From positions 389,689-453,688 of the forward strand of contig NZ_JANFNG010000001.1 of assembly GCF_024436035.1 (NCBI RefSeq): DNA of 64,000 nucleotides, read 5' to 3'. Below are positions 31,593-55,414 of this stretch, piece after piece; positions within the stretch are counted from its first letter, which is position 1; every line of letters begins with the position of its first letter. Origin of the DNA: Streptomyces humicola. GTDB lineage: Bacteria; Actinomycetota; Actinomycetes; Streptomycetales; Streptomycetaceae. Under the pieces are notes generated by a model. The model made no database searches. It worked only from the letters and a program-made list of their open reading frames with translations, and was not told where the DNA came from. The translations under genes and the position numbers were made by a program.

Positions 31593-32483
31593 CTACTCGG
31601 ACGATGTTCCGGTGCGCAGATGGTCTTGTGCGTTGCCGGGCGTACGGGTGGTGGTCGGTCGGGGAGCGCGGCCGGGGGTGCGGGTGGCGCCGATAGAGGC
31701 GAGGGCTACCGCGAGCACTCCGGCCCATTGCGCGGTGGTGAGGTGCTGGCCGATGAAGAGCAGACCGATGAGTGCTCCGACTGCGGGTTCAAGGCTCGTC
31801 AGGATGCCGAAGGTACGAGGTGGCAGCCGACGGAGGGCCTCGAGTTGGGCGGTGTAGGGCAGGATGCTGGAGAGGATGGCGACAGCGGCGGCGAGGACGA
31901 GTGTGCCGGGGGCCAGGAGCCGAGTGCCCGCTTGGGCGATGCCGTAGGGCAGGCTGAGAAGGGCGCCCCAACTGACGGCGAGGGCCAGGCCTCGGCCGTC
32001 GGGAACGCGTTCGGCGAGCCGTTTGGCGACGAGGATGTAGCCGCCCCAGCAGCACCCGGCGAGCGTGGCAAAAGCGAGTCCTGTGGCGTTGAGCGAAACG
32101 CCCGAATGGCTGAGCAGCACGACCCCTGCCGCGGCGAGGCAGGCCCACAGCAGGTCGGTGGCACGGCGTGAGGCGAACAAGGCGATGGCAAACGGTCCCA
32201 GGAACTCCATGGTGGTGGCGGCGCCGAGCGGGAGCCGGTCGACTGCCTCGTAGTAGCTGAGGTGGTGGACGGCGAGCAGGGTTCCGGCGGCGGCGGCGAC
32301 CCTCAAGGTGGCCCGGTCCCACCGCATCCCCGGCCGCCACACCGTGATGAGCACCACTGCGGCGATACACAGACGCAGGGTGACCACTCCGGCCGGCCCC
32401 ACGAGCGGATACATCCGGGTGGTGAGCGCGGCGCCGCATTGCAGACCGACCACGCCGCCCATGACGAGCCCGGGGGCGGGCAC
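31593..32483 (-). CDS. EamA-family (DMT superfamily) transporter
   Basis: A protein of about 296 residues with ten hydrophobic segments in two EamA repeats: first half GPAGVVTLRLCIAAVVLITV and HHLSYYEAVDRLPLGAATTM; second half CCWGGYILVAKRLAERVPDG and LPPRTFGILTSLEPAVGALI. This matches RhtA/YdcZ-like drug/metabolite exporters, often for amino acids such as threonine or homoserine. The start is uncertain: GTG 32483 (VPAPGLVMGG) sits at the usual family start but has no good ribosome site, and the frame continues open upstream. The C-terminus is Pro/Arg/Thr-rich. It is monocistronic. Confidence 0.85.
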   Translation of the reverse strand: MPAPGLVMGGVVGLQCGAALTTRMYPLVGPAGVVTLRLCIAAVVLITVWRPGMRWDRATLRVAAAAGTLLAVHHLSYYEAVDRLPLGAATTMEFLGPFAIALFASRRATDLLWACLAAAGVVLLSHSGVSLNATGLAFATLAGCCWGGYILVAKRLAERVPDGRGLALAVSWGALLSLPYGIAQAGTRLLAPGTLVLAAAVAILSSILPYTAQLEALRRLPPRTFGILTSLEPAVGALIGLLFIGQHLTTAQWAGVLAVALASIGATRTPGRAPRPTTTRTPGNAQDHLRTGTSSE

Positions 32484-33345
32484 GGCGCCCAGCCCGCGAC
32501 TGATCGCTTCGACGACGTGCTCACGACGGGCGTTGAGCTGACTGATGGGTGGACCTCCGTCATCTCGGGCATGCGACGATCGCCTGCCACCTTCAAGGTT
32601 GAGCCGTTGTCGTCGCCCGGGCCCGACCGCCGCACCCCGGCGGGCATTTGGGTGACGGTGGCACGGTGGATCTTGGCTTTGAGCGTCTCGAAATACACAG
32701 TGGCCCTTCGCGGTTGCGTTTGGTCGGGCGGTGATCTCGGCGTCGCGACGCAGTGGAGCGTGCCATGGCGAAAACGTCGCCACAACCCCGTGATGCCAAC
32801 GGAATCCGAAGGTCTGACGCTCTCCTTGCTGTGTAAAGCGCAGGCAGGTGCCCTTGTCTGTGGAAACCTCCGCGATCAGGTTTCCGTGGTGCTCAGCGAG
32901 GCCCGCCATCACGGCTTTGCTGGTTCTTTGCAGGGCTCGTCCGTTCCTCAGCCCTCCGCCGCCTTGGTGGCCTTGCCCGGGCCGCGGCGTGCACTGTCAG
33001 GGCCTTGGCCGGGGCAGGACGCTCGGGGAGACCTTCCCGCCCGGTGTCCTTGGGCGACCTGCCGCGTGAACGGGCTGATCGCGTAGGCCTGTCGCCCGTC
33101 CTGCCGGTGTCGCGCTGTTCGACGTGTTACCGCGCATCGGAGGCCGTACGGGCCGAGCGCGTCGCCCATTGCGGCAGTTGCGCGCCGAGGCAATCATCAA
33201 ACCTCACACGAGCGCACCCGTTTGCTCGAGCAATGTCAACGTGTCGGCGACGGCTCAGTGCGATGGGTAGTGGTCCGCTGCTCGGCCTCGAAGGCTATGC
33301 ACCGTTCACCGAAGGCCGGCCTCCTGTGAGCGCAATGCGGCTTCG
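32484..33345. other. Gene-free stretch
   Basis: About 860 bases with no supportable gene on either strand. Open frames are Arg/Pro-rich and lack motifs or ribosome sites. The left end probably holds the transporter promoter. The right end leads into the cupin relic at 33346. Confidence 0.4.
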
Positions 33346-48277: not shown

Positions 48278-49189
48278 CTAAACGACCGTTGTGTAGTGCG
48301 AGGCGTCACCCGCGATCGAGTAGCTCGACTTGCCGTCGATGCCGACCGGGACGTCACCTGCGACCGTCACACGGTTCAGACGGCGTGGCCGGCCGTCGTA
48401 GTTGTCGATGGCGTAGTGCTGGGTGATCCGGTTGTCGAACAGCACGAGCTGGTTGGGCGACCAGCGCCACCGCAGGATGTTCTCCGGCCGGGTGACGCAG
48501 CTCTGCAGCAGGTCCAGGATCTTGCGCGATTCGGCTGTGGACAGGCCCACGATCCGCTGCGCGAACCCTCCGATGAACAGCCCGCGCTCACCGGTCAGCG
48601 GGTGCACCCTCACAACGGGGTGGGCGGTGCGGAAGGTGATGGAGGTGAACACCGCACGCTGTCGGGCCTTCTCCTCGTCGACGCTCTCCTCGGGCACCGC
48701 GTAGTCGTAGTCGTTGGTGTGTTCCGCCCACAGGGAGTCGGCGAGGAGACGCAGCGGCTCGGGCAGATCACGGTAGGCGCCGGCGGCGTTCGCGATCAGC
48801 GTTTCGCCGCCGTAGGGCGGAACGACGATGCTGCGCAGGGTGCTGGCCTGCGGAGGGTTGACGACGAAGGTGACGTCGGTGTGCCAGTGGTTCGCCCGGC
48901 CTCGCTCACTGTCGACGGGGAGGACGTTCGGGGTGCCCTCGACGGAGGGGACGGTCGGGTGCGCGGTGGTCAGTTCGCCGAAGTGCCGGGCGAAGCGCTG
49001 CTGGCCCTCGTCGTCGAGATCGACGTCGTCGAACACCAGCGCCTTGTGCTCGTTGAGGGCGGCGCGCAGGACGGCGACGGTCTCGCCGTCCAGCTCCTTG
49101 CCGATGTCGACGCCCGCCACCAGCGCGCCGATGCGAGCGGTGACCTTGCGGATCTCCAGACGGTTCTGGGTTTCGATACTCGTGGACAT
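48278..49189 (-). CDS. TauD/TfdA-family alpha-ketoglutarate-dependent dioxygenase
   Basis: A 303-residue non-heme iron dioxygenase from ATG 49189. The iron site HxD is in RANHWHTDVTFVVNPP and the distal His and 2-oxoglutarate-binding Arg are in the region DNRITQHYAIDNYDGRPRRL then NRVTVAG. N-terminal IRKVTARIGALVAGVDIGKE is typical of TauD/AtsK. These enzymes release sulfite from taurine or cleave alkyl sulfates. It is the last gene of the five-gene sulfonate operon, 28 bases downstream of the LLM monooxygenase. Substrate (taurine, alkylsulfonate or alkylsulfate) is not determined. Confidence 0.92.
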   Translation of the reverse strand: MSTSIETQNRLEIRKVTARIGALVAGVDIGKELDGETVAVLRAALNEHKALVFDDVDLDDEGQQRFARHFGELTTAHPTVPSVEGTPNVLPVDSERGRANHWHTDVTFVVNPPQASTLRSIVVPPYGGETLIANAAGAYRDLPEPLRLLADSLWAEHTNDYDYAVPEESVDEEKARQRAVFTSITFRTAHPVVRVHPLTGERGLFIGGFAQRIVGLSTAESRKILDLLQSCVTRPENILRWRWSPNQLVLFDNRITQHYAIDNYDGRPRRLNRVTVAGDVPVGIDGKSSYSIAGDASHYTTVV

Positions 49190-49217
49190 GCGGGTTTCTC
49201 TCCTTCTCGGCGGGTGC

Positions 49218-50564
49218 TCAGTGGGTGGCCAGTACCGGGACCGTGTACTGGTTGGCGGGGCGCGGCAGTCCGTACCGCTCGCGCAAGGTCTGTCGGGGGC
49301 CGTACTCGCTGCGCAGCAGTCCGCGGGTGCGCAGGACCGGCACGACGTGGTCGACAAAGAGTTCGAGACCCGAGGGCAGCACGGCGGGCATGATGTTGAA
49401 CCCGTCGGCGGCGCCGTGGCGGAACCAGTCCTCGATGGCGTCGGCGACCTGTTCGGGTGTTCCGGTGAAAGTGCGGTGACCGCGGCCTCCGCCGAGCCGT
49501 CCGATCAGTTGGCGGACGGTGAGGTCGTCGCGCCGGGCGAGTTCCACGACGAGGGTGTAGCGGCTCTTCGCTCCTTCGATCGCGCTTTCCGGCGGAAGGC
49601 CGTCCGGCAGCCGGGAGTCCAGGTCGAGCGCGCCGGGCTCCACGTGCAGCAGGCGTTCGAGGCGGTGCAGGCTGTGCTCGTACACGATGTGCTCTTCGAG
49701 TTCGGCCTCACGGCGCCGCGCCTCCGCCTCGGTGTCGCCGATGACGGGGACGATCCCGGGAAGAATCTTGATCCCTTCCGGATCGCGTCCGCCCGCTCGG
49801 GTCCGGGCCTTGAGGTCCGCGTAGAACTCCTGCGCGTCGCGGAGCGTCTGCTGTGCGGTGAACACCGCCTCCGCGTGGCGCGCCGCGAACCGCCTGCCGT
49901 CCTCGGACGAACCCGCCTGCACCAGCAGCGGATAGCCCTGCGGCGAGCGCGGCACGTTGAGCGCACCCTCGACGCTGAAGTGGGTGCCCCGATGCTTGGG
50001 CGGGTGGAGTTTGGCGGTGTCGCCCCAGACGCCGGCGATCTTGTCCGCGACGATGAGGTCATCCTCCCAGCTGTCCCACAGCTTGAGCACCACATCCAGG
50101 AACTCGGCGGCGCGTTCGTACCGGGTGGCATGCGACGGCTCGTCGTCAAGGCCGAAGTTGCGGGCGGCTTCCGCGCCGGCGGTGGTGACGATGTTCCACC
50201 CGGCGCGCCCGCCACTGATGTGGTCGAGCGAGGCGAAGGCGCGGGCCAGGTTGTACGGGGCGTTGTAGGACGTCGACGCGGTGGCGATCAGGCCGATGTG
50301 CTCGGTGGCGGTGGCCAGCGCGGTGAGCAGCGTGATCGGTTCCAGCGAGCCGGACGGGCGCTGGCCGACGCTGTTGAAGAGCACCGGTCCATCGGCGAGG
50401 AAGAGCGAGTCGAAGGTGCCGCGCTCCGCGATGCGGGCGAGGTTGCGGTAGTGGTCGATCGCAACGCTCGCATACGGGTTGCTCTCCGGCAGCCGCCACG
50501 ACGCCTCGTGGTGGCCGGTGTTCATCAGAAACGCGTTGAGGTGCAGCTGTCGGTGTCGGGTCAC
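49218..50564 (-). CDS. NtaA/SnaA/DszA-type flavin-dependent monooxygenase
   Basis: A 448-residue class C (two-component) monooxygenase. The start is GTG 50564 (VTRHRQLHLNAFLMNTGHHE) with AAGGAG 7 bases upstream, overlapping the ATPase stop by four bases. Family motifs are FDSLFLADGPVLF, LEPITLLTALATATEHIGLI, NLARAFASLDHISGGRAGWN and GYPLLVQAGSSEDGRRFAAR. Enzymes of this clade use reduced FMN to attack sulfonates, sulfones, nitrilotriacetate or EDTA. A partner FMN reductase is not present in the operon. In a sulfonate-uptake context it likely desulfonates an imported compound. Confidence 0.92.
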   Translation of the reverse strand: MTRHRQLHLNAFLMNTGHHEASWRLPESNPYASVAIDHYRNLARIAERGTFDSLFLADGPVLFNSVGQRPSGSLEPITLLTALATATEHIGLIATASTSYNAPYNLARAFASLDHISGGRAGWNIVTTAGAEAARNFGLDDEPSHATRYERAAEFLDVVLKLWDSWEDDLIVADKIAGVWGDTAKLHPPKHRGTHFSVEGALNVPRSPQGYPLLVQAGSSEDGRRFAARHAEAVFTAQQTLRDAQEFYADLKARTRAGGRDPEGIKILPGIVPVIGDTEAEARRREAELEEHIVYEHSLHRLERLLHVEPGALDLDSRLPDGLPPESAIEGAKSRYTLVVELARRDDLTVRQLIGRLGGGRGHRTFTGTPEQVADAIEDWFRHGAADGFNIMPAVLPSGLELFVDHVVPVLRTRGLLRSEYGPRQTLRERYGLPRPANQYTVPVLATH

Positions 50565-51307
50565 GTGGTGGCTCCTTGGACGTCTTCGGTCACGCCGAGA
50601 GCGGCAAACAGCCGCTCGCGGTACTCGCCGAGCAAGGGGTCGCGATAGGACCGCGGGTGGGGGACGTCGACGCTCACGTCGAGACCGATACGTCCCTGGT
50701 CGAGTACGAGGACACGGTCGGCGAGCACGATCGCCTCGTCCACGTCGTGGGTGACGAGCAGCACGGACGGCCTGTGGCGCTCCCACAGTTCACGCAGGAG
50801 GGTGTGCATCCGGATGCGCGTCAGCGCGTCCAGGGCGCCGAACGGCTCGTCGGCGAGGAGGAGCTCGGGGTCCCACACCAGGGACCGGGCCAGCGCGGCG
50901 CGCTGTGCCTCTCCGCCAGACAGCTCATTGGGCCAGGCGCGTTCCCGCCCGGCGAGGCCGACCTCGGTGAGGGCCGCCCGCCCCCGTTCAGCGGCGTCCT
51001 TCCCGCGGGTCCCGAGGATCACGTTGTCGAGCACACGGCGCCACGGCAGCAGCCGGGAGTCCTGGAAGACGACGGACAGGCGTTGCGGGGCGGCCAGTTC
51101 GCCACTGCCGGTGACCTGGTGGTCGAGGCCTGCAATGGCCCGCAGCAAGGTGCTCTTCCCGGAACCGCTGTGGCCGAGCAGGGCGACGAACTGCCCCGCC
51201 GGGATGTCGAGGTCGATCCCGTCGAGCACGTCGCGGGCGCCGAAGCTCCGGGTCAGGCCGCTGATCCGGACGGCGGGCGGGGTCAGTTGCTCAGCGTGCG
51301 TCGCCAT
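50561..51307 (-). CDS. ABC transporter ATPase (SsuB/TauB type)
   Basis: A 248-residue ATPase from ATG 51307. Walker A is GHSGSGKST (about residues 45-53), Q-loop VFQDSRLLPW, signature LSGGEAQRAALARSL, Walker B LLLADEPFGALDALTR and H-loop LLVTHDVDEA. This is the nitrate/sulfonate/taurine importer ATPase subtype. It overlaps the permease gene by 25 bases upstream and the monooxygenase start by four bases downstream, so the operon is tightly coupled. Confidence 0.94.
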   Translation of the reverse strand: MATHAEQLTPPAVRISGLTRSFGARDVLDGIDLDIPAGQFVALLGHSGSGKSTLLRAIAGLDHQVTGSGELAAPQRLSVVFQDSRLLPWRRVLDNVILGTRGKDAAERGRAALTEVGLAGRERAWPNELSGGEAQRAALARSLVWDPELLLADEPFGALDALTRIRMHTLLRELWERHRPSVLLVTHDVDEAIVLADRVLVLDQGRIGLDVSVDVPHPRSYRDPLLGEYRERLFAALGVTEDVQGATT

Positions 51308-52167
51308 GACAGCACCCTTCGTTCGATCAGGCGGACCGCGCTGTCGGAGACCAGGCCGAAGATCCCGTAGATCAGCAGGCCGACGATGATCACATCCGTA
51401 CGGCCGTAGTTCTGGGCCTGGAACATCATGTAGCCGAGGCCGCTGGTCGCGTTGATCTGCTCCAGGACGACCAGGGACAGCCACGAACCGGTTACGCCGA
51501 GCCGCAGTCCGACGAAGAAGCCGGGTAGTGCGCCGGGGATGACGATTTGCCGGATGAACTGGACCCTGCTCAGCCCGAGGACCTCGCCCAGCTCCACGAA
51601 GCGGTTGTCGATGCCGGAGAGCGCGGAGTGCAGGTTGAGATAGATCGGGATGTAGACGACGATGGCGATGATGGTGATCTTGAAGGTTTCGCCGATGCCC
51701 AGCCAGAGGATGAACAGAGGTATCAGGCCGAGGGTGGGGATCGCCCGGTTGAGCTGGACCGTGCCGTCGATCAGCGCCTCGCCGACCCGGCTGAGCCCGG
51801 CGGCCAGGGCGAGCGCCACCCCGCCGACCAGGCCGATGGCGAAACCGTACCCGGCACGCCGCAGCGAGGTGGTGATGTCGGAGCCCAGTGTGCCGTCGGT
51901 CCACAGGTGGGCGGCGGTACGCAGGACCGTCCAGGGTGCCGGTATGGCCCCGGGGTCGAGCTGTCCGGCGGCGGAGGCGGCTGCCCAGAGCGCCAGGAAG
52001 AGCACGGGACCGGTCAGCCGCGAGGCGGGCAGCCGCCTGCCCGGGGCGAGCCCGCGGGTGCTGCGGCGCGTGACCGGCGCCCGCTCGTGCGCACGCCCGT
52101 GCTCGGGCTCGTGATCTGCAGGACGTGGCCGTATCGCGGTGCTGCCGTCAAGGACGCGTTCGGTCAC
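51283..52167 (-). CDS. ABC transporter permease (SsuC/TauC type)
   Basis: A 294-residue permease starting at GTG 52167 with GGAGG 8 bases upstream. Six hydrophobic segments follow an Arg/Pro-rich N-terminus. The cytoplasmic coupling loop is EVLGLSRVQFIRQIVIPGAL (EAA-like motif), and LIPLFILWLGIGETFKI is the usual SsuC/TauC signature. It works with the ATPase downstream and the lipoprotein upstream to import sulfonates or related oxyanion-bearing compounds. Neighbour gaps are 5 bases upstream and a 25-base overlap downstream. Confidence 0.93.
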   Translation of the reverse strand: MTERVLDGSTAIRPRPADHEPEHGRAHERAPVTRRSTRGLAPGRRLPASRLTGPVLFLALWAAASAAGQLDPGAIPAPWTVLRTAAHLWTDGTLGSDITTSLRRAGYGFAIGLVGGVALALAAGLSRVGEALIDGTVQLNRAIPTLGLIPLFILWLGIGETFKITIIAIVVYIPIYLNLHSALSGIDNRFVELGEVLGLSRVQFIRQIVIPGALPGFFVGLRLGVTGSWLSLVVLEQINATSGLGYMMFQAQNYGRTDVIIVGLLIYGIFGLVSDSAVRLIERRVLSWRRTLSN

Positions 52168-52172
52168 GGGTA

Positions 52173-53240
52173 TCACCTCCGATAGGTGGCAGGGACGGCG
52201 TTGGCTGCCAGGCTCTCGAACCGGCGGTCGAAGAGCGACGCGGCCTGGAAGGACTTCACGAAGCCGCCCTCGGCCAACAGGTCGGCCGTGTCCTGCTCCC
52301 AGGCGATGGCTTCGTTCCAACTCCGTGGGAACAGTGGCTTGTTGCCGAGCTCGGTGATCTCCCGGGCCTGGGCGAGGGCGATGTTCTGGGTCTTGACGTA
52401 GAACTGCTCGTTCCACTCATCAGGGTGTTCGTAGACCCAGACCAGGCCCTGGGCCCAGCGCGGGATGAACCCCGCGATCGCCGCAGCCTTGGAGGAGTCG
52501 GCCAGCACCTCGGCCGGGGCCCACAGCAGGCTGAGGAGGTCGACGACGTCGGTAGTGATCGTGTGCGCCCCCTTGGCTCCGTACTGGTTGAGGTAGGAGG
52601 GAACCTGGCTGATGGCGAGGGGTGCGATGTCCACCTGCCCGGCCTGCAGCGCGGTGAGGAACTGGTTGCTGGTCAGCGGCACCAGCTGGACGTCGGAGTA
52701 CGTCAACCCGGCCTCCCTCAGGGCGCGGAGCAGGACGACACCTTGTGCCTGGCCCTGGGAGAACGCCAGTTTCCTGCCCTTGAAGCCCGCGACATCCTTG
52801 ATGTCGCTGTGCGGTGCGGTGGCGAAGACATAGGAGGGTTTGCGGGTGAGGTTGACGGCCACGATCTTCGCGTCGTAGCCCTGGTAGTGCGCCTGGATGG
52901 GAGGGATGCCTGCATTGTTGGCCAGGTCCAGGGAGCGGGCGCGGAAGGCGTTGATGACGTCGGGTCCGGCGCCGATGTTGAGCCAGTTGGACACCGTGAA
53001 GGGAAGACGGTCCAGTCCGGCGAGCTTGAGCTGTAGCTGCTGGGAGCCCTGGTACGAGGCGATCGCGAGGCTGGTGCCGGAAGGGACGGTGGTGGGCAGT
53101 GGAGCGTTGGAGGACAGCGTCGGCTCGGCGGCGGAGCTGCTCGCGCAGCCACCCAGACCGAAGGCCGCAGCGGCTCCGAGCAGGGAGTGCAGGAACAGGC
53201 GCCGGTCGGGACCGGACGCCGGCAAGGCGGAGTTGGACAT
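52173..53240 (-). CDS. ABC transporter substrate-binding lipoprotein (SsuA type)
   Basis: A 355-residue protein from ATG 53240. A lipoprotein signal with a Tat-like RR precedes the lipobox LGGC (RRLFLHSLLGAAAAFGLGGC). The mature region has the sulfonate/nitrate-binding fold: LAIASYQGSQQLQLKLAG, FRARSLDLANNAGIPPIQAH, DVAGFKGRKLAFSQGQAQGV and LTSNQFLTALQAGQVDIAPL. It captures an aliphatic sulfonate or similar anion. It is the first structural gene of the operon, 220 bases downstream of a short ORF with terminal Cys codons and a small hairpin. Confidence 0.93.
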   Translation of the reverse strand: MSNSALPASGPDRRLFLHSLLGAAAAFGLGGCASSSAAEPTLSSNAPLPTTVPSGTSLAIASYQGSQQLQLKLAGLDRLPFTVSNWLNIGAGPDVINAFRARSLDLANNAGIPPIQAHYQGYDAKIVAVNLTRKPSYVFATAPHSDIKDVAGFKGRKLAFSQGQAQGVVLLRALREAGLTYSDVQLVPLTSNQFLTALQAGQVDIAPLAISQVPSYLNQYGAKGAHTITTDVVDLLSLLWAPAEVLADSSKAAAIAGFIPRWAQGLVWVYEHPDEWNEQFYVKTQNIALAQAREITELGNKPLFPRSWNEAIAWEQDTADLLAEGGFVKSFQAASLFDRRFESLAANAVPATYRR

Positions 53241-53424
53241 CGGAACACTCCGTGATTTCTCGCGTAGGGAATTCGGCACGGGAACGTCAGCCGGGGAGGG
53301 GGGAATGCACGCATTGCCGCGGGAGATGCCGGAAGAGCGTGCCGCGGAAACCCGCGCACGCATCACAGAGGCGGAAGCGTCACCGCTGTCCGGGGCGGCC
53401 CGGCCGGCATGTAAGCCCGGAAAA

Positions 53425-53440
53425 CGCTGATATGTCAGCG
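53425..53440 (-). terminator. Attenuator-like hairpin between leader ORF and sulfonate operon
   Basis: On the minus strand CGCTGA-cata-TCAGCG is followed at once by TTTT, a short stem with a U tract like a weak intrinsic terminator. It lies 20 bases after the stop of the Cys-Cys leader ORF and 185 bases before the binding-protein start. This fits transcription attenuation; function is inferred. Confidence 0.5.
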
Positions 53441-53460
53441 CATGTCGATGTGTCGTCGAG

Positions 53461-53613
53461 TCAGCAACAGTGGCTGCGTCCGACCCGCATCAGGTCGATG
53501 ACACGGCACTTGGTGAGGACGATCCGGCGAGACGGGCGCTGCGCGACACCAGAAGCGCGGTCACGGCTCTGCCGTGACCGGACTACCTGGGAAAATCCCT
53601 GCGCGTTGCTCAC
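53461..53613 (-). CDS. Putative cysteine-responsive leader peptide
   Basis: A 50-codon ORF from GTG 53613 to TGA 53461-53463 upstream of the sulfonate operon. The C-terminal end LTKCRVIDLMRVGRSHCC carries the R-x-IDL-x-RV pattern found in the many small leader ORFs before Streptomyces sulfur and metabolite operons, and it ends with two adjacent Cys codons directly before the stop. Ribosome stalling at Cys codons when cysteine is scarce would alter folding of the downstream hairpin. In mycobacteria, short ORFs with consecutive Cys codons are known cysteine-responsive attenuators. The start is uncertain: AAGGGA is 14 bases upstream, and a shorter peptide from an internal start is possible. Confidence 0.6.
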   Translation of the reverse strand: MSNAQGFSQVVRSRQSRDRASGVAQRPSRRIVLTKCRVIDLMRVGRSHCC

Positions 53614-53667
53614 GAACAGGATGGTCCCTTTCGCGCGCAGCGCCTGTCAACATTCCGAGTTTCTGAA

Positions 53668-54903
53668 TTAATTCGCCCCGGTCGGCACGCCCAGCGGGTC
53701 CCGGTACAGCACGTCCAGGGCCACCGATCCGCCCGCCGTGGCCAGCACCGAGTCGGGAAAGCTACTCGGTACCACCGCCTGCTCGACATCGGTCGCCATG
53801 GACGTGTGCGTCCTGGCCTCCGCCCGAAGTGCGGCGAGGCAGTCCTCGCGGTGGATGACGCCGAGTTCGGTGACGACGACGGTGTCGGGGTTGAGTACGT
53901 CCAGCAGCAGGCCCACCGCGCGGCCGACCAGCCGAGCACGCTCGACCAGCAGGTCCGCCGCAACCGGATCGCCATTGTTCGCGGCGGCAAGTACGAGCAT
54001 CGGGTCCGGGGTGTCGATGACACCCGCTTCCCGGGCCCGGCGGCACAGCGTCTGCTCGCTCACCTCGGCCTGCAGGCATCCGGTCCGGCCGCAGCGGCAT
54101 GGCCGGATACCGCCGTTCACCGGCAGGTGGGCGATGGCTCCGGCCTGCGACCGAGGCCCGTAGTGCACCTGGTCGTTGGTGGCGAAGGCGGCATCCACCA
54201 CGTTGCCGATGAACAGGTGCAGCACGCTCTGGCCGCTCCGGGCGCGCCCGAACAGCCGCTCGCCATTGACCAGTGCCCTGGAGTGGCCGTCGACATGGAC
54301 CGGCAGGCCCGTATGCCCGCCGAGCATGTCGCGGACGGGCACACCACGCCAGCCCAGTAGCGCGTGGTCGACGATGGTCCCGGAGCCACGATCCACCCAA
54401 CCGCCGGCGGCCACGCCGACACCCAGCAGCGTGGTCCCCGGCGCGTGCTCGGCCAGCAAGGCGTGGAGCCCTTCGGCGGCCCGCGCCAGCACCCAACCGG
54501 GTTCGGTGCTGTCGTGGCTCCTACGCCGCTGCGCCACGATCCGGCCCCGCAGATCGAGGAGGGCGACCGTCGTGTACGGCACTGCAATGTGCACCCCACC
54601 GACCAGAAACCGGGAGACGTCCAGGTCGACCGGAAGATGCGGCCGCCCGACGCCGTTGGAACGCCGCGGCGCGTGCGCCTCCCGGATCAAGCCGAGCCCG
54701 ATGAACTGGGCGCAGTAGTCGGTCACCGAGGCCGGGGACAGCCCGGTCAGCCGAGCGATGGTGCTCCGGGCCACCGGCCCGTGCTCCAGAACGGCCCGCA
54801 GCACGAAGCTGGCGCTGGTCCTTCGACGCGCGCTGCCGGAGGCTCGCCGTCCAGGAACGAAAACAGCGGCTGGTGCGGATGGTGCTGCTGGGTTGCTGGG
54901 CAT
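53668..54903 (-). CDS. ROK-family transcriptional regulator
   Basis: A 411-residue protein from ATG 54903 (AGGAAG about 9 bases upstream). An N-terminal winged helix (RRTSASFVLRAVLEHGPVAR, STIARLTGLSPASVTDYCAQ) is followed by a ROK kinase-like fold with LVGGVHIAVPYTTVALLDLR, GVGVAAGGWVDRGSGT and the zinc-binding ROK motif CRCGRTGCLQAEVSEQTLCR. ROK regulators bind sugars or phosphosugars; members beside sulfonate operons in Streptomyces may act as their repressors. It is upstream of, and in the same direction as, the leader ORF and operon, 54 bases from the leader start. Its role in sulfur control is inferred. Confidence 0.9.
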   Translation of the reverse strand: MPSNPAAPSAPAAVFVPGRRASGSARRRTSASFVLRAVLEHGPVARSTIARLTGLSPASVTDYCAQFIGLGLIREAHAPRRSNGVGRPHLPVDLDVSRFLVGGVHIAVPYTTVALLDLRGRIVAQRRRSHDSTEPGWVLARAAEGLHALLAEHAPGTTLLGVGVAAGGWVDRGSGTIVDHALLGWRGVPVRDMLGGHTGLPVHVDGHSRALVNGERLFGRARSGQSVLHLFIGNVVDAAFATNDQVHYGPRSQAGAIAHLPVNGGIRPCRCGRTGCLQAEVSEQTLCRRAREAGVIDTPDPMLVLAAANNGDPVAADLLVERARLVGRAVGLLLDVLNPDTVVVTELGVIHREDCLAALRAEARTHTSMATDVEQAVVPSSFPDSVLATAGGSVALDVLYRDPLGVPTGAN

Positions 54904-55414
54904 AGGGGATCTTCCTCGGGAGCCGGTCCGACACTGCGCCATCTCAGTCGGCGAGCCGGATTCGCTCCGTCCGCCTCAAGCCGGGCAACAGGTGGCCGCA
55001 CCCTGGCGTCCCAGATCGAGGTATCGACGCGACGAGAGTTTTTCGGCCTGGGCAACCATGCCTCGAAGCTAGCAAACCGCTCCGCTCCTGCACAGCCGCC
55101 CGCGCCCGGCGACCCGATACAAACGCGGCCGACTCGGCGGCGTCACCCTGCCCCGCCGCTGAGCGGTCCCGCTCCCGAGCGATCGATGAAGCTCTCTTCG
55201 AGGTTCCGCCGGACCATCACCGATGTCCGAGCCGGCCAGAGATCTCTGACCGCTGAGGTATCGGCGACGGTGCGGGCGCCTACTCCAGGAACGCCGCGGT
55301 GGTCGCCACGAACCGGTCGGCGCCCCGGCGATCCGCCAGGGCGGTGCCGCCCCGGGCGCGGCGGCGCCGTAGCGCAGCCCTGGCAGCGTCCGCTGTGACC
55401 ATGACGGTCGCGAT
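54904..55414. other. Gene-free stretch
   Basis: The left part contains the ROK promoter. On the minus strand a short frame near 55410-55285 reads MVTADAARAALRR and DRFVATTAAFLE before a stop; it resembles the tail of a lost gene but is not assignable. The rest shows no coding pattern. Confidence 0.4.

Follow-up and report, generated by a model that had tools for sequence, protein, structure and literature searches.

The window, by which we mean the whole 64,000-nt stretch of Streptomyces humicola DNA analysed here, contains a sulfonate-type ABC operon whose genes all lie on the minus strand, in the order SBP, permease, ATPase, FMN monooxygenase and TauD-like dioxygenase. A short leader ORF is located between this operon and a gene for a ROK-family regulator (Table 1). 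The initial annotation had described a 50-codon ORF ending in two Cys codons and a stop, 5´ of sulfonate transporter genes, and both the ORF and its position are as it stated. The ORF translates to MSNAQGFSQVVRSRQSRDRASGVAQRPSRRIVLTKCRVIDLMRVGRSHCC, its 3´ end reads TGT TGC TGA, and a gap of ~220 nt separates it from the SBP gene.

Table 1. Features of the leader region and the downstream operon, in the order of transcription
Feature	Coordinates in window	Strand	Evidence or remark
ROK-family regulator gene, 5´ of leader	53668..54942	-	Pfam ROK
Conserved element TTAATTCAGAAACTCGGAATGTT, candidate operator	53649..53671	-	overlaps ROK stop codon and -35
Putative leader promoter, -35 TTGACA	53645..53650	-	conserved in all 60 loci
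Putative leader promoter, -10 GACCAT	53621..53626	-	family consensus GA[AG]CAT; 7 nt 5´ of GTG
Leader ORF, 50 codons	53461..53613	-	GTG start 53613, TGA stop 53461
Conserved C-terminal motif LTKCRVIDLMRVGRSHCC (before stop), resembling cis_reg_atten leaders	53464..53517	-	12 long-type leaders and profile score
Cys49-Cys50 codons TGT TGC	53464..53469	-	TGT conserved, TGC replaceable
Stem-loop CGCTGA-CATA-TCAGCG followed by TTTT, potentially a weak terminator	53421..53440	-	terminator role considered for this species only
GCGTGCATTC ... GAATTCCCTACGC, degenerate counterpart of relatives´ GAATTC inverted repeat	53262..53312	-	
SBP ribosome-binding site GGAG (GGAGTGTTCCG ATG)	53248..53251	-	
Sulfonate-type ABC SBP, first structural gene	52173..53240	-	ATG at 53240; TIGR01728 E 2e-27 (below cut-off), Pfam NMT1
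SsuC-like ABC permease (start approximate)	51283..52140	-	
SsuB-like ABC ATPase (start approximate)	50561..51307	-	
NtaA/DmoA-family FMN monooxygenase (start approximate)	49218..50600	-	TIGR03860 551 bits, above cut-off
TauD-like dioxygenase (start approximate)	48278..49192	-	Pfam TauD 199 bits

The leader ORF is real and conserved, far above chance. We sought SBP homologues in 395 genomes of the family and took 80 loci of 9-12 kb oriented on the SBP gene, counting a locus as syntenic where a ROK gene (>60% identical) lies directly 5´ of the SBP gene (59 loci, or 60 with the window). A leader ending [R/S/H][T/S]xC[C/S]-stop occupies the same spot in 59/59 of these relatives, with the end CC* in 58 and CS* in one (L053); the 60 loci are related by descent, and such counts are not independent events. 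Thus the ORF persists, with its own conserved promoter, where the operon is conserved, and the loss that the initial annotation had named as evidence against its proposal was seen in none of the syntenic relatives. None of the 21 loci without an adjacent ROK gene has this type of leader, and one of them, L100, carries an ordinary HVDLRR-type leader instead. A leader match in L127 was discarded as it lies 768 nt upstream.

Leaders vary both in length, from 8 to ~50 codons, and at the N-terminus, while the Cys end is kept. In most Streptomyces the leader has just 8-12 codons (MSCRTLCC, MSPLTSCRTLCC, MSLFVSCRTLCC), and in 12 loci, the window included, it is of a long type with LTKCRVxDLMRVxRTxCC; the short leader looks like the long one minus the VxDLMRVxR segment. 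A pattern for the short form, TGTCGCACNNNNTGTTGCTGA, matches 63 of the 395 family genomes, and 62 of the 63 matches lie just 5´ of the SBP gene; the reversed pattern, used as a control, has no match in the same 395 genomes. Genomes that are alike in this respect include Streptomyces scabiei, S. viridochromogenes and Actinacidiphila cocklensis, among others. The last codon can change, to give CS-stop in L053 and CR-stop in S. anandii (L171) and S. carpinensis (L180). A protein search of the S. humicola genome with the leader ORF returned the ORF itself and two matches at E ~1.5. We also observed a different leader ~150 nt 5´ of the homologous SBP gene in Rhodococcus phenolicus (L196), with the end CCCR; in this one genome the 3´ end reads TGT TGT TGT CGC TGA, and the leader is probably GTG-initiated and leaderless.

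The codons used for cysteine in these leaders follow a strict pattern. The penultimate Cys codon is TGT in 59/60 operon leaders, and the Cys codons of the operon genes at the same loci are TGT in 43/447 cases (9.6%). Within the 12 long-type leaders, the Cys at -15 is TGC in 12/12, the Cys at -2 is TGT in 12/12 and the Cys at -1 is TGC in 11/11. The window Cys49, the penultimate residue, lies nine residues after the motif Asp (D+9) and is encoded by TGT. The same position is TGT in 36/36 matches to the NCBIfam leader-peptide family NF042934 in this and related genomes, where the other Cys codons are TGC in 37 cases and TGT in 3, and in 28/28 leaders of the NF042933 family across the class, where TGC is found at D+2 in 26/28, at D+7 in 19/22 and at non-sensing Cys codons overall in 58/69. 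With a degenerate DNA pattern that permits either codon, 85 of 86 matches in 148 class genomes have TGT, and the reversed pattern has none in these genomes. Loci L004-L009, L011, L012 and L200-L257, with leader matches from locus position 1501 onward, are among those that show this near-invariant TGT in actinobacterial cis_reg_atten leaders. Chance codon usage was rejected as the cause, because most of the remaining Cys codons in these leaders are TGC. RNA pairing was likewise rejected, with the third base of the penultimate Cys codon unpaired in the consensus fold.

These counts refine the initial annotation, which had pointed to two consecutive Cys codons: a leader of this kind is indeed kept in 59/59 relatives, but its conserved sensing part appears to be a single UGU codon, Cys49, and Ser or Arg codons can stand in the last position. 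We suggest a broader rule, that in actinobacterial cysteine leaders the sensing Cys must be UGU, even though the far commoner UGC would encode the same peptide, that wobble decoding and not the residue alone sets the sensitivity of the switch, and that the operon leader reduces the sensor to its minimum, at the extreme the eight codons M-S-C-R-T-x-C-C; we see the odds on this rule as evenly balanced. Near-invariant UGU against a background of ~90% UGC amounts to a position-specific synonymous constraint across Actinomycetes leaders, and UGU at D+9 provides a criterion for finding leaders that profile models miss. We know of no report of a UGU rule for cysteine leaders, and the literature passages on such leaders that were consulted make no mention of one; its novelty is not certain. 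The rule leads to a testable question, namely what a single synonymous change from UGU to UGC in the leader does to the regulation of the genes.

The sequence 5´ of the leader points to a dedicated promoter. Across the family the layout is TTGACA-N18-GA[AG]CAT-N7-ATG with fixed spacing, the distance from the -35 to the start codon being 37 nt in 56 of the 60 loci and 36 nt in the other 4. This spacing puts the start of transcription at the start codon, and the leader mRNA is therefore probably leaderless. A scan with promoter and terminator consensus sequences gave no match because the -10 is not TATAAT-like. The conserved sequence TTAATTCAGAAACTCNGAATNTTGACA lies directly 5´ of the promoter across loci; in the window, TTAATTCAGAAACTCNGAATNTT adjoins the -35. 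In a genome search allowing as many as 3 mismatches, the core of this 23-nt element had one occurrence; the element makes a good operator candidate, perhaps for the adjacent ROK protein. Since a single-copy element overlaps the -35, control at the promoter and control at the leader probably act together.

We propose that the leader is a regulatory uORF on a leaderless mRNA, which ties expression of the sulfonate and sulfur-scavenging operon to charged tRNA-Cys, and we put the probability of this reading at roughly 0.8. Because it occupies the same place in all syntenic relatives, and because its key Cys is nearly always the rare UGU, the leader very probably acts as a sensor of cysteine, with the operon turned on when the amino acid is scarce. 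In this model, when cysteine is plentiful, the ribosome would run through UGU at Cys49 to the stop and leave, and the untranslated, pyrimidine-rich gap would then permit attenuation. When Cys-tRNA is short, the ribosome would pause at UGU, which would be the slower Cys codon owing to G-U wobble, and the operon would be expressed. Transcription from the leader promoter, translation of the ORF, stalling and the direction of the response are steps that we infer. If the model holds, much of the Streptomycetaceae would adjust sulfonate scavenging to cysteine supply as read on the mRNA, in addition to using a dedicated ROK-type regulator.

One different account of the sensing step is that the nascent chain itself arrests the ribosome, with tunnel contacts of LTKCRVxDLMRV playing a part, so that the arrested ribosome would sense cysteine or a thiol, and not the supply of tRNA-Cys alone. 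In favour of this account, the residues L, T, C, R, D, L, M and R are invariant in the 12 long-type leaders, and non-Cys residues are also conserved across the NF042934 and NF042933 families (consensus LTKRRAVDLCRVASCLC). Most Streptomyces leaders, however, have lost the segment and keep M...CRTxCC, a peptide whose length would not span the exit tunnel, and we regard arrest of this kind as unlikely.

How a paused ribosome at UGU would be converted into operon expression is a separate matter. The initial annotation had envisaged classical attenuation, in which a stem (53440-53425) followed by TTTT (53424-53421) is an intrinsic terminator that stalling at the Cys codons would block. The 6-bp stem and the T-run are present, starting 20 nt past the leader stop. 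Alone the stem is weak (-6.9 kcal/mol), but when 110-nt stretches of the gap are Markov-shuffled, 0.5% contain a perfect 6-bp stem followed by four or more T in 5 nt, so that the hairpin is improbable by chance. In addition, a duplex of -7.5 kcal/mol is possible between TTGCTGA at the leader end and TCAGCG, the 3´ arm of the hairpin, and in the close relative L053 two copies of GCTGA are followed by TCAGC and TTTTTT. Other properties of the hairpin speak against this role. A comparable stem (minimum 5 bp, plus a minimum of 4 T in 5 nt, within 110 nt) occurs in just 4/60 loci, the window included; on this ground an intrinsic terminator was rejected as the family-wide output and kept as a possibility for this species. 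Moreover, a ribosome stalled at Cys49 would not reach the start of the stem, and the predicted fold contains the hairpin whether such a ribosome is present or absent; alternative pairing as its switch, which the annotation had named as a point to check, is not supported. The one alternative pairing found, that of the leader end with the 3´ arm, would itself be blocked by stalling, and would thus presumably act with the opposite sign. The conserved terminator and antiterminator pairings that a trp-type attenuator requires were not found across the 60 loci. We therefore consider termination at this hairpin a doubtful output for the operon.

The gap between the leader and the SBP gene offers two other possible outputs. 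Compared with 46 control gaps, which come from a rough gene caller in a comparison that is phylogenetically dependent, the leader-SBP gaps are poor in G (0.24 vs 0.30) and rich in pyrimidines (0.66 vs 0.54), a composition that fits Rho-type termination; in the window gap the excess of pyrimidines is slight (Y 0.58, G 0.28). As the output we favour, tentatively and at a little under even odds, premature termination of the Rho type within the C-rich gap over both control at the SBP ribosome-binding site, which we find somewhat improbable, and the intrinsic terminator discussed above. The length of the gap ranges from ~105 to nearly 400 nt between species (L059, L064, L071 and others), and any output structure must therefore tolerate large changes in length. 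Many Streptomyces have a conserved GAATTC inverted repeat between the leader and the SBP gene (including the L087 gap). Although 85% of its cells are paired, its covariation is no better than that of shuffles, 134-449 of 500 of which reach the observed values; therefore it could be an RNA or a DNA element, and it may be an RNA hairpin, a DNA site or a second operator. An Rfam covariance-model search gave no match over the gathering score, and two sub-threshold chance matches.

Two further accounts would leave the leader peptide without a role. The ROK protein at the promoter could be the sole control, with the leader having no present function, and it is true that the 23-nt element occurs once in the genome and overlaps the -35, and that leaders of this type occur only where a ROK gene is adjacent. 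A non-functional ORF, however, would not keep its Cys codons and the choice of TGT in 59/60 loci, and S. carpinensis (L180) keeps the leader while no ROK gene is seen within 700 nt upstream, which makes this account very improbable. The notion that the conservation reflects a small element at the RNA or DNA level, with the ORF incidental, is the least probable: TGTCGCAC....TGTTGCTGA hardly varies among short-type leaders and might fold into a small hairpin spanning the end of the leader, and the -35 region is strongly conserved too, but leaders of very different length and sequence keep the frame, the start 36/37 nt from the -35 and the Cys end, synonymous changes are present at Thr and at codon x, and the Rhodococcus leader shares almost no sequence yet has CCCR-stop.

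Among known families, the leader is closest to NF042934 cis_reg_atten (´putative leader peptide´, NCBIfam), whose members are likewise short ORFs 5´ of sulfur genes. The two share L-T-x-x-R-x-[VI]-D-L-x-R-V-x4-C, with the sensing Cys at D+9 encoded by UGU. They differ on the N-terminal side of the Asp, where the window peptide has C and V in place of R and H/A; in addition, its DL is followed by M, its Cys is preceded by RSH, and it ends CC-stop. An NCBIfam scan with E values up to 10 gave no match of the 50-residue peptide, nor of its last 20 residues, to NF042934 (whose curated HMM has a cut-off of 27 bits) or to NF042933, and the window leader is absent among the NF042934 matches of a search of its own genome. 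The NF042934 motif [LT]TxRx[HA][VI]DLxRVxxAxC was assessed with our own profile of 41 members, on which the window peptide reaches 20.0 bits and the lowest member 31.9; the score of 20.0 bits is attained by 4/200000 shuffles and, among the 1281 segments from the six frames of the window, by a single one. Because its score is below that of the lowest member, we do not file the leader under NF042934 or NF042933; by our model it would nevertheless work as the members do, and it is probably a divergent homologue of the cis_reg_atten leaders. The core LTK-x-R-x-VDL-x-RV and UGU at D+9 are also shared with the Cys-rich leaders of the NF042933 (Ms5788A) family; the NF042933 leader of this genome (L007), unlike the window leader, precedes a mercaptopyruvate sulfurtransferase-like gene. 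A text search of the literature returned nothing on SCRTLCC or NF042934.

About nine NF042934-type leaders are present in the same genome, most of them 5´ of recognisable sulfur genes, and by analogy these support the initial annotation´s assignment of the leader to the cysteine attenuators. Six precede genes for cysteine synthase, dimethylsulfone monooxygenase, a sulfite/nitrite reductase-like protein, a mercaptopyruvate sulfurtransferase-like protein, a sulfonate permease-like protein and an FMN monooxygenase; three further ORFs 3´ of such leaders gave no family match. Just outside the window, a leader ending TGT TGT TCC TGA (SHIDLLRVAGALCCS; G000:C11:362637-362693) lies 5´ of an FMN monooxygenase gene. 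The window also has a weak NF042934 match (E 0.18) at 33214-33261 on the minus strand (LSRRRHVDIARANGCARV), which lacks Cys at D+9 and is located ~300 nt 5´ of the start of ORF 31593-32912; this ORF presumably encodes an EamA-type transporter.

Related systems have been described in other bacteria. Cys-rich leaderless uORFs of M. smegmatis are experimentally cysteine-responsive and are described as being attenuated according to cysteine availability (Canestrari 2020, as related in PMC9031893 and PMC13236596), and the latter describes mycobacterial polycysteine uORFs as acting by translation attenuation. In these accounts the M. smegmatis sORFs are, as the window leader probably is, leaderless uORFs with Cys codons 5´ of a sulfur operon; they differ in having poly-Cys tracts, and the window leader in having a 220-nt gap to the first gene. 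The candidate Cys leaders of Mycobacterium, P. acnes and B. longum (Seliverstov 2005) resemble ours, in the sections of PMC1262725 drawn on here, in that the Cys codons stand beside the stop and there is no conserved terminator, with Rho-type termination proposed for the mycobacterial cys operons (Seliverstov et al., PMC1262725). They differ in that they precede cys and cbs operons, and those sections contain no ROK/sulfonate operon and no statement on UGU. The uORFC-8-2 found 5´ of cysS in Rhodobacterales has two tandem Cys codons and is likewise predicted to act by ribosome-mediated attenuation, but, according to PMC8632094, this alphaproteobacterial leader has UGC as the dominant codon and a clear intrinsic terminator. 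The window leader has the features of this functional class, a uORF that is leaderless by promoter spacing and conserved Cys codons 5´ of an operon, and on sequence grounds we class it as a variant of cysteine-responsive uORF attenuation, a known kind of regulation.
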